Source of the DNA: Geomonas paludis
GTDB lineage: Bacteria > Desulfobacterota > Desulfuromonadia > Geobacterales > Geobacteraceae
Direction of reading: 5' to 3'
NCBI RefSeq assembly: GCF_014193585.1
Contig: NZ_BLXY01000005.1
Location: 124,001 to 188,000, forward strand
DNA: 64,000 nucleotides
Shown here: piece by piece, positions 3,121-14,173 of the stretch
Position numbering within the stretch: position 1 is the stretch's first letter
Layout: each line of letters begins with the position of its first letter
Made by a program: the position numbers and the translations under genes
Notes under the pieces: generated by a model
Seen by the model: only the letters and a program-made list of their open reading frames with translations
The model's database searches: none
What the model was told of the DNA's origin: nothing

Positions 3121-4017
3121 ATGGGCGGGTGGGGAGACATGACCGGCAAGATCTGCCTGGTGACCGGTGCCAGTTCCGGGATCGGCAGAGCCACCGCCCT
3201 CGCGCTGGCCCGGGAGGGGGCGACGCTGATCGGGGTGGGACGGGACCGGGAGCGCTGCGCGCGTAGCGCCGAAGCGATCGTGCGGGCAAGCGGCAACTAC
3301 CACGTCGAGTTCTGGCAGGCGGACCTCTCCAGCCAGGAGGAGGTCCGCGCCGTCGCCCGCCGCTTGAACGCGGTGTACCCGCGCCTGGACCTGCTGGTGA
3401 ACAACGCCGGGGGGAGGTTCGACCGGCGCGTCACCAGCGCCGAAGGGGTGGAGATGACCTTCGCCCTGAACCACCTGGGTTACTTCCTGCTGACCATGCT
3501 GCTCATGGAGCGGCTGCGCGTGGCGGGGCGGGCCCGGGTGGTCAACGTGGCCTCGGCGGCGCACCGGGCCTGCCCGGGGATGGACTTCGACGACCTGAAC
3601 CTGGAACGGGAGTACGACGGCAGGAGAGCGTATGCCCAGTCCAAGCTGGCCAACCTGCTCTTCACCTACGAACTGGCCCGGCGCCTGGCAGGGAGCGGGG
3701 TCACGGCCAACGCGGCGGCGCCGGGCAACGTGCTGACCCGCTTCGCGCTCAACAACGGCCTGGGGAGCTGGCTGTCCCACATCGCGGGCTCGCTGCGAAG
3801 CGGCAGGCTGGTCGGGGCGCGCCGCGCCGCGCGCACCGTGCTCTACCTGGCCTGTGCCGGCGAGGTGGCCGGCAAAAGCGGCGGCTACTACTGCGAAGAA
3901 AAAGAAGCCGCATCCTCACCCGCATCCTACGACGAAGCCGCAGCAGGACGCCTGTGGCGGGCGAGCCTGGCACTGACCGGGCTCGCGGACCAGGCGCGGC
4001 AAGGGAGGCTGCCGTGA
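3121..4017 (+). CDS. Short-chain dehydrogenase/reductase (SDR)
   Basis: This 298-residue protein has a complete classical SDR signature: TGASSGIG nucleotide-binding loop (15-22), NNAG (94-97), catalytic Ser145, and the YxxxK pair Tyr171/Lys175. The length and the segment after the catalytic Tyr resemble the retinol-dehydrogenase-like SDR branch. A second start at 3139 (MTGK) also has a ribosome site and would remove six residues. The C-terminal tail past residue 270 is alanine-rich. The stop overlaps the GTG start of the next gene, so the two are co-translated. Substrate unknown. Confidence 0.88.
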   Translation: MGGWGDMTGKICLVTGASSGIGRATALALAREGATLIGVGRDRERCARSAEAIVRASGNYHVEFWQADLSSQEEVRAVARRLNAVYPRLDLLVNNAGGRFDRRVTSAEGVEMTFALNHLGYFLLTMLLMERLRVAGRARVVNVASAAHRACPGMDFDDLNLEREYDGRRAYAQSKLANLLFTYELARRLAGSGVTANAAAPGNVLTRFALNNGLGSWLSHIAGSLRSGRLVGARRAARTVLYLACAGEVAGKSGGYYCEEKEAASSPASYDEAAAGRLWRASLALTGLADQARQGRLP

Positions 4018-4514
4018 AAAACGCATGCATGGTGCTGCTGGCGCTGACCGCCGTGGCGGGGAGCGCACGCGCTGACGGAACCTACTACCCGTACCAGTTC
4101 TACGACGAGTACTACCGGCAGCAGGAGCAAGCTCCCCCCGCCGCCGCGCCGGAGGAGGGGGAGCGCCAGCGGCGTCCACCGCCTGCTGCGCAGCGGGCGC
4201 CGCTGTTTCTGTTTCCCGCGGAGCTCGGGTTCGGGGTGGCGGCCGGTCGCGGCGAGGACCTCTTCTACCTCGCCCCGACCTACTTCAAGGCCAGCGGCGG
4301 GGTCTGGTACCGTGCCAAGTCCTGGCGCGGCCCCTGGCTGCGGGTGCCGCGCGGCAAGCTTCCTGCCGAGCTCGGCAGGCGCACCATCGCCCAGATGCGC
4401 GTGCTGCGCAACCGGGAGTTCCGCCAGTTCTGGGAGCAAAAGGGGAGCTACCGGGGACGGGTGTTCCGCCCCGAAGCGGAGCCGGCGCAGCCGGCAGGAA
4501 AGCGGCCTAACTAG
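4014..4514 (+). CDS. Small secreted protein of unknown function
   Basis: Starts at a GTG overlapping the SDR stop and preceded by AAGGGAGG; 166 residues. The first 20 residues form a signal peptide ending SARA, followed by a Tyr-rich stretch (YYPYQFYDEYYRQQ), a proline/glutamine linker and a compact domain containing WYRAKSWRGPW and many Arg/Trp residues. I do not recognise the family. It ends at a TAG inside the palindrome CTAG at 4511-4514, which also supplies the TAG of the convergent arsS. Its last 23 bases are therefore shared with the arsS 3' end and its hairpin. Confidence 0.65.
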   Translation: MKNACMVLLALTAVAGSARADGTYYPYQFYDEYYRQQEQAPPAAAPEEGERQRRPPPAAQRAPLFLFPAELGFGVAAGRGEDLFYLAPTYFKASGGVWYRAKSWRGPWLRVPRGKLPAELGRRTIAQMRVLRNREFRQFWEQKGSYRGRVFRPEAEPAQPAGKRPN

Positions 4515-4534
4515 GCCACGATGCTGCCGCCTCA
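4492..4534 (-). promoter_or_regulatory. SECIS-like hairpin immediately after the arsS TGA
   Basis: Two bases past the TGA, arm CGGCAG (4529-4524) pairs perfectly with CTGCCG (4497-4492). Inside it, after a symmetric four-by-four internal loop, GTGGCC (4519-4514) pairs with GGCCGC (4507-4502), closing a six-base loop UAGUUA about 18 nt from the TGA. Bacterial SECIS elements sit directly 3' of the Sec codon with an apical loop at about this distance, usually with a G early in the loop; here the G is third. The real stop TAG lies in the loop. Confidence 0.6.
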
Positions 4535-5496: not shown

Positions 5497-5829
5497 CTAA
5501 AGCGAGAGCTTCTCGGCAATCTTGCGCATCTGCACGCCGTGCACCAGGGAGGCCCCGCCGCGGATCGCAGTCACCACGTGCAGCGCTTCGGTCATCTCGC
5601 CCAGGTGCGACCCTTTTTCCAGGCAGGCCCTGGTGTAGGCGTCGATGCAGTAGGGGCATTGTACGGTGTGGGCGACGGCAAGTGCGATCAGCGCCTTTTC
5701 CCGCTCGGTGAGTTCCCCCTCGGCAAAGACCTCCTTGTAGTAGTCGAAAAATTTCCCCGCCAGTTCCGGCGCATCCTTGCCGATCTCGGCGAAGCTCCCC
5801 AGGTCCCTGGGATCGTAGTAGGTCTCCAT
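5497..5829 (-). CDS. AhpD/carboxymuconolactone-decarboxylase-like protein associated with ArsS
   Basis: A 110-residue protein that matches the AhpD-like fold: an alpha-helical domain with a redox CPYC (Cys58, Cys61) and downstream conserved Gly-rich helix. The usual His of AhpD's CxxCxxxH is replaced by Tyr65. Small proteins of this kind are found next to ArsS and are annotated as arsenosugar-biosynthesis-associated peroxidase-like proteins. The gap to arsS is 8 bases and its start has AAAGGAG, so the two form one operon. Role: probably thiol redox or reductant supply for the arsenosugar pathway; not directly shown. Confidence 0.8.
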   Translation of the reverse strand: METYYDPRDLGSFAEIGKDAPELAGKFFDYYKEVFAEGELTEREKALIALAVAHTVQCPYCIDAYTRACLEKGSHLGEMTEALHVVTAIRGGASLVHGVQMRKIAEKLSL

Positions 5830-14090: not shown

Positions 14091-14173
14091 GATATCGATA
14101 ATACTAAAACTTCCGCGAGGAAGTGACGGAAAGCCTAAGGGTCTCACGCAGACAGCCGGGTTGCCGAAATATC
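14091..14173 (+). promoter_or_regulatory. GEMM-I riboswitch, probably GEMM-Ib (3',3'-cGAMP type)
   Basis: Core elements appear in order: a 5' strand GATAT with an AATACTAAA segment; a hairpin ACTTCC/GGAAGT capped by the GNRA tetraloop GCGA; the conserved GACGGAAAGCC; a second helix, GTCT paired with AGAC; and the closing strand GCCGGGTTGCCG followed by ATATC, which pairs with the 5' GATAT. This is the GEMM-I cyclic-dinucleotide aptamer. The AATACTAAA segment and overall wording recall the Geobacter metallireducens GEMM-Ib aptamer that selects cGAMP. Its 3' strand doubles as the left arm of the terminator. Confidence 0.88.

Follow-up and report, generated by a model that had tools for sequence, protein, structure and literature searches.

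The arsS frame of Geomonas paludis runs into an in-frame TGA six codons ahead of a TAG, and the question raised by this locus is whether the TGA terminates the protein or encodes selenocysteine (Sec). Within the window, that is, the whole 64,000-nucleotide stretch of DNA analysed here, the initial annotation had favoured Sec and had pointed to a SECIS-like hairpin just past the TGA. Our comparisons, made at the level of sequence, indicate that arsS in this window is almost certainly a genuine selenoprotein gene: the TGA aligns with Cys of relatives, the genome holds the Sec machinery, and the hairpin fits the published bSECIS model. The coordinates of the features discussed are collected in Table 1.

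Table 1. Features at the arsS locus (coordinates are those of the window)
Feature	Coordinates	Strand	Basis
Short-chain dehydrogenase gene, 5' of the convergent gene	3121..4017	+	Profile match
Convergent gene; TAG 4512-4514, 2-base overlap with the arsS stop; last codons form the SECIS 3' arm	4014..4514	+	ORF, sequence
Whole two-tier predicted fold, with the UGA within the folded stretch; lower tier not conserved	4488..4534	-	Folding, relatives
Upper hairpin of the putative bacterial SECIS, conserved; 7-bp stem GTGGCCT/AGGCCGC, loop AGTT	4502..4519	-	Fold and comparison
arsS real stop TAG, within the SECIS hairpin at its loop and closing pair	4511..4513	-	Sequence
UGA predicted as Sec319, aligned with Cys of relatives	4532..4534	-	Alignment and motif search
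arsS with predicted Sec, 325 residues	4511..5488	-	ATG 5488-5486, stop TAG 4513-4511; frame translated with TGA as Sec
TIGR04169 arsenosugar biosynthesis-associated peroxidase-like (CMD/AhpD) gene, CPYC, directly 5' of arsS	5497..5829	-	Profile match

The arsS reading frame and its protein family

On the minus strand, CTVGSGFT is followed by the TGA, by GGC GGC AGC ATC GTG GCC (GGSIVA) and by the TAG, just as had been described initially. The ATG lies eight bases past the stop of the preceding CMD gene and has an AGGAG ribosome site just 5' of it; translation from this ATG confirms the product lengths first given, namely 325 residues with Sec as residue 319, and 318 without read-through. A gene call that takes the TGA as a stop loses the last seven residues, including the one aligned to a conserved Cys.

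Against TIGR04167 ('arsenosugar biosynthesis radical SAM (seleno)protein ArsS'; curated cut-off 300 bits) the protein scores 357.2 bits without the Sec tail and 367.2 bits with it, Sec and the six residues 3' of it adding 10 bits. Pfam matches above cut-off are PF04055 (Radical_SAM) and, in the C-terminal part, PF12345 (DUF3641). In 12 aligned sequences C39, C43, C46, C257, C272, C308, C311 and the Sec/Cys at position 319 are invariant. The first three form the radical SAM CX3CX2C motif, while the remainder make up an equally invariant pattern of C257-x9-G267-x4-C272 and C308-x2-C311-x7-Sec319. The auxiliary cluster motif of SPASM/twitch proteins consists of CX9-15GX4C and further Cys ligands, and we take the C257-x9-G-x4-C272 stretch of ArsS to resemble this motif of the twitch/SPASM auxiliary iron-sulphur domain.

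The best structure model of ArsS has a mean pLDDT of 82.4 and a pTM of 0.85, with pLDDT values below 50 at residues 42-48 and 315-325 (the Sec tail). Its top Foldseek matches are the SPASM/twitch radical SAM enzymes SkfB, SuiB, EpeE and BlsE (E 4e-10 to ~1e-7), but identity to these is only 13-16% and the TM score is ~0.5. These four are radical SAM enzymes, several with extra iron-sulphur clusters, and to our knowledge none of them is a selenoprotein. The motif and the fold suggest that ArsS may carry an auxiliary iron-sulphur cluster with Sec319 nearby, in a tail modelled at pLDDT below 50.

Cys or TGA at the site in relatives

Motif searches that admit only Cys or TGA at the site, skipping TAA and TAG, gave 129 distinct aligned rows, with TGA in 60 (Sec rows) and TGC or TGT in 69 (Cys rows). 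The search behind these rows covered 142 loci, 137 of them with the motif (L064, L098, L145, L146 and L151 are without it), from which 8 duplicates were dropped and near-copies kept; it replaced a stricter first search that had returned 30 Sec and 39 Cys rows. As had been anticipated, homologues align with Cys or TGA exactly at this position. The residues 5' of the site are GFT (57), GST (two) or GFS (one) in the Sec rows, and GSS (61), GFT (four), GSG (three) or GFS (one) in the Cys rows. All 129 rows have Gly as the second residue past the site, and Gly-Gly follows the site in 55 of the 60 Sec rows and in 30 of the 69 Cys rows.

Across 48 genomes from the family, above-cut-off TIGR04167 matches that contain an internal stop come from 20, namely 18 of the 19 genomes of the same genus together with G006 and G038, and all of these stops are TGA; indeed, every internal stop among the above-cut-off matches listed, in the family and phylum samples alike, is TGA. 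In the 19th same-genus genome (G028), the match to the window protein ends at residue 287, and CTVGSGFT, stop, GGSIVA, stop and the hairpin are found in another frame. At this locus (L064, about 3864-3945) the frame is broken before the C-terminus, through either an error in sequencing or decay of the gene. Of the 11 named loci, six belong to Geomonas species, with identities of 76-92%. In a phylum sample of 395 genomes, family members at E<=1e-70 are present in 120; a TGA copy occurs in 38 of these, counting the genome of the window.

If the TGA were instead an ordinary stop at residue 318, GGSIVA and the hairpin would be incidental, with the latter perhaps serving both arsS and the convergent gene as a bidirectional terminator. 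We regard this as very improbable: Gly-Gly past the site in nearly all Sec rows, the 10 bits that the tail brings to the family match, and Cys at the site in the 69 other rows all argue against it. More improbable still is that the UGA is read through as Trp or another amino acid by near-cognate decoding and not as Sec. UGA readthrough does happen at a low level in bacteria, but Cys occupies the site in the three Cys rows aligned and in other Geobacteraceae copies (the motif search, which allows for Cys and TGA only, has no bearing here), and a full Sec machinery (see below) and a SECIS are present.

The SECIS hairpin in the window

The initial annotation had described a two-tier hairpin with arms of 6 bp and 6 bp. 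A hairpin is indeed found, the 4488-4534 stretch folding at -26.9 kcal/mol (z -3.66, with 0 of 200 shuffles as good) and, with two bases added at the 5' end, at a z of -3.14 (2 of 200 shuffles as good). The upper arm, however, has 7 bp and not 6, consisting of six G-C/G-U pairs and a U-A pair that closes the AGUU loop, and the lower tier is not kept in relatives. The loop starts at base 20 after the UGA. The accessible part of PMC13188914 (section 5) gives as bSECIS rules a loop of 3-9 nt, a stem of 4-16 bp, a G as first or second loop base, a spacing of 16-37 nt and an MFE <= -7.5 kcal/mol. Scored against this model, the window hairpin falls within every limit, with a 4-nt AGUU loop, a 7-bp stem, a UGA-loop spacing of 19 nt and -10.7 kcal/mol for the stem alone.

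Stems that equal the one in the window (score 18) occur at 5.2% of the 18270 window positions sampled and follow four of 78 TGA-ended long frames; the hairpin alone is therefore weak evidence. These figures are in keeping with an ordinary stop, as is the position of the hairpin between convergent genes, in a near-palindrome around both stop codons, but only three T lie past the stem, which argues against a terminator. An Rfam scan of the window at gathering level returned one riboswitch only (c-di-GMP-I, 14093-14168, plus strand, 51 bits), such a scan being no test of SECIS.

The hairpin in relatives

Counted on the uninterrupted stem alone, the published rules are passed by 46 of 60 Sec rows, four of 69 Cys rows and 112 of 1824 (6.1%) window TGA triplets, the rows being related and not independent trials. 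The loop of the best hairpin starts at +19 to +22 in 58 Sec rows and 10 Cys rows; when the loop is held there, a stem score >=13 is reached in 55 Sec rows, two Cys rows and 5.1% of 25576 window positions. The first two loop bases include a G in 59 of the 60 Sec rows and in 37 of the 69 Cys rows. For the upper stem alone, fourteen Sec rows do not reach -7.5 kcal/mol, and in L103 a proper stem is missing from the usual place. The hairpin thus tracks TGA and not Cys, also where no relative of the convergent protein is found, contrary to what an ordinary stop would lead one to expect.

Base pairs were recounted with the loop length free in 19 of 22 distinct rows (L047, L060 and L062, with stems in another register, were dropped). 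Changes on both sides that keep the pair are C-G to U-A in two of the 19 rows and G-C to A-U in one; one-sided changes that keep it are U-G to C-G in three and to U-A in two. The 5' arm of the SECIS is coding and the 3' arm non-coding, and in L034, L052 and L048 the residues are changed (VV, VV and AT, respectively) with the stem kept. Shuffles of a model-fitted alignment gave a weak signal, with one both-sided pair change (26 of 500 shuffles as high) and a covariation score equalled in 14 of 500; this, we think, is due to misalignment of L034 and L052, whose loop is one base longer.

The lower tier was also considered as a conserved element and was rejected, six of its nine pairs being broken in 6 to 13 of the 19 rows and the other three in 3 or 4. 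The conserved part of the hairpin is the upper stem only. Separately, in L089, a Cys-type ArsS (TGC), the SECIS place is occupied by a hairpin of 11 bp (score 26), which may be a terminator or due to chance.

Selenocysteine machinery

The genome of the window (5.11 Mb, completeness 99.99) has one above-cut-off match each for selA (603.8 bits), selB (394.6 bits), selD (364.8 bits) and tRNA-Sec (74.9 bits), the last reported by ARAGORN as tRNA-SeC with anticodon tca, so that the look-up of selA, selB, selC and selD recovered all four. The selD gene (L008, G000:C16) itself contains one in-frame TGA, between AG and AAKLGP, followed by a hairpin of 8 bp with its loop beginning at +18, and is likely to be a selenoprotein gene in its own right, judging from these features. 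Sec use in this organism is therefore independently supported by the machinery and by the in-frame TGA of selD.

A stop codon within the SECIS loop

The arsS stop and the TAG of the convergent gene both lie inside the palindrome GGCCTAGTTAGGCC. In 51 of the 60 Sec rows the stop codon falls at least partly within the apical loop or the pair that closes it, and in 48 there are exactly six codons between Sec and the stop. The stops used are TAG (34), TGA (22) and TAA (three), with one beyond the stretch read. A stop inside the SECIS loop makes for a compact element, in which recoding and termination of one gene would take place within ~30 nucleotides.

The convergent gene has no NCBIfam or Pfam match over 4032-4514, and its product has an N-terminus that, by eye, resembles a secretion signal. 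The earlier claim that the hairpin lies inside the 3' end of this gene, so that one stretch of DNA is doubly constrained, is borne out by its TAG and last codons (Table 1). In a neighbour search whose database was without the window itself, so that Sec counts are out of 59, a relative of the convergent protein was found near 13 of these 59 Sec rows, each from the genus of the window, and near none of the 69 Cys rows. Of 20 loci examined, 11 have an open frame on the opposite strand with its end at the same offset. The double constraint is therefore real but local, and the SECIS is wider than the overlap. On the other side of arsS, the TIGR04169 partner lies next to the gene in 53 of the same 59 Sec rows and in 15 of the 69 Cys rows, in flanks of differing length. 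A plasmid search with the 161-bp region gave no match.

Distribution of the Sec and Cys forms

In a quick likelihood tree, 58 Sec rows and six Cys rows (L033, L140, L141, L144, L147 and L149) form one branch with an SH-aLRT of 100, a grouping that the motif may help slightly, since the rows retained the residues flanking the site, which was itself set to X. Many inner forks of this branch are open, and therefore the number and direction of Sec/Cys changes are not fixed. With the loop at +19 to +22, the six Cys rows score 3-7. The published rules are passed in one of them, L033, by a hairpin at a different position (37 nt, -7.6 kcal/mol), and by no hairpin in the other five. Since these Cys rows inside the Sec branch are without a stem at the usual place, loss of Sec seems to accompany loss of the hairpin, and ArsS offers a natural test of SECIS function.

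The two Sec rows that fall outside the main branch in this tree, L101 and L102, have GSTU at the site. A second origin of Sec is not claimed for them, because a selA match was found in neither genome. In the phylum sample, a selA match was not found in five of 37 Sec-ArsS genomes, whose completeness is 62, 73, 81, 82 and 90%. The use of selA as a discriminator of the two forms was tried and discarded, selA being matched in 32 of 37 genomes with a TGA copy, in five of five with a GFT/GFS Cys copy and in 32 of 38 others; this comparison, like that of ArsM below, covered 80 of the 120 phylum genomes with a match (37, 5 and 38, respectively), without G000.

ArsM and the substrate

Characterised ArsS adenosylates dimethylarsenite. 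Sec-ArsS occurs in genomes in which no ArsM is recognisable, and one may ask what its real substrate is. The protein could be a selenoprotein without being an arsenosugar enzyme here, acting on another substrate, or it could use methylated arsenic from other organisms. We consider this possible, though on the doubtful side. An ArsM-like gene at E<=1e-40 was not found in the window's genome (best match 72.1 bits), nor in 17 of the 18 other genomes of the genus. In the remaining one, G013, the neighbour of the ArsM-like gene, at ~3 kb, is a Cys-type ArsS distinct from the Sec copy, which lies on a different contig, and a relative of this ArsM was found in the available flanks of none of the 59 other Sec rows and of three of the 69 Cys rows. 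The single branch formed by the Sec rows, two excepted and six Cys rows included, points the same way. Against this, ArsM is present in 18 of 37 Sec genomes and in 18 of 38 others without a TGA copy in the phylum sample, and the TIGR04169 partner is found beside both forms.

The absence of ArsM as a mark of the Sec form was likewise rejected on these counts, together with one of five for genomes with a GFT/GFS Cys copy. As for G013, it holds Sec-type and GSSC Cys-type ArsS on separate contigs (L152, C12:758016-772000, and L054, C14), its Cys copy (L033) being placed inside the Sec branch. Several below-cut-off ArsM-like matches, among those listed, hold one in-frame TGA; these may be arsenite methyltransferase selenoproteins (NCBIfam NF041537; described in the accessible part of PMC13188914).

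Proposed mechanism

With the equivalence of UGA and Cys, a conserved hairpin with some paired changes and a complete Sec machinery all visible at the sequence level, Sec is probably inserted at residue 319. In the mechanism that we propose, SelB with Sec-tRNA would bind the hairpin just past the UGA, the ribosome would insert Sec at residue 319 and add GGSIVA, and termination would follow at the UAG, itself in the top of the hairpin. Sec319 may replace a catalytic, metal-binding or arsenic-binding Cys, and is plausibly a candidate catalytic residue. In our view, it probably lies near the putative auxiliary cluster and could hold or activate a trivalent arsenical, or serve in redox.

A broader reading would join these points: Sec-ArsS would form a separate branch with Sec as an extra ligand beside the auxiliary cluster, its arsenicals or other substrate would not come from an ArsM of its own, and a minimal SECIS topped by the gene's own stop would couple SelB binding, insertion and termination six codons on. 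That all of this holds together is, in our estimation, unlikely. The parts of it observed directly are the stop-in-loop geometry and the separate branch.

Comparison with known systems

A stop in the SECIS loop was not found in PMC10778597 or PMC13188914, as far as the accessible parts of these papers go, and the accessible parts of PMC13188914 and PMC9312934 contain, for TIGR04167, neither this arrangement nor the convergent-gene overlap. By title, no paper on Sec-ArsS was found beyond PMC9312934 and PMC13188914, in a literature whose coverage of subscription journals is thin.

In its dimensions, the window hairpin resembles the bSECIS model as laid out in the accessible part of PMC13188914, having a 4-nt loop with G second and then U, a UGA-loop distance of 19 nt and a 7-bp upper stem. 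The element of that model is, however, typically within the coding region, whereas the window frame ends in the loop and half of the element lies past the stop. Cys-type ArsS proteins of other Geobacteraceae and of the phylum belong to the same family, have the same Cys positions in the three Cys rows aligned and in some cases have the TIGR04169 neighbour; they differ in having mostly GSSC instead of GFTU, in their identity of 37-52% among Geobacteraceae copies, and in seldom having a hairpin at the place.

The closest known case is the 'Radical SAM domain protein, TIGR04167', AAR34688.1, which is listed as a selenoprotein with the motif GxxU in the accessible part of PMC13188914 and tabulated under 'Predicted' selenoproteins in that of PMC9312934. 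On the strength of these excerpts, it shares with the window protein the family match and Sec in a GxxU context (GFTU in the window), and nothing essential separates the two, AAR34688.1 being another species' copy. Since TIGR04167 is already catalogued with Sec members, the ArsS of the window is to be regarded as a further, predicted member of a known selenoprotein family.
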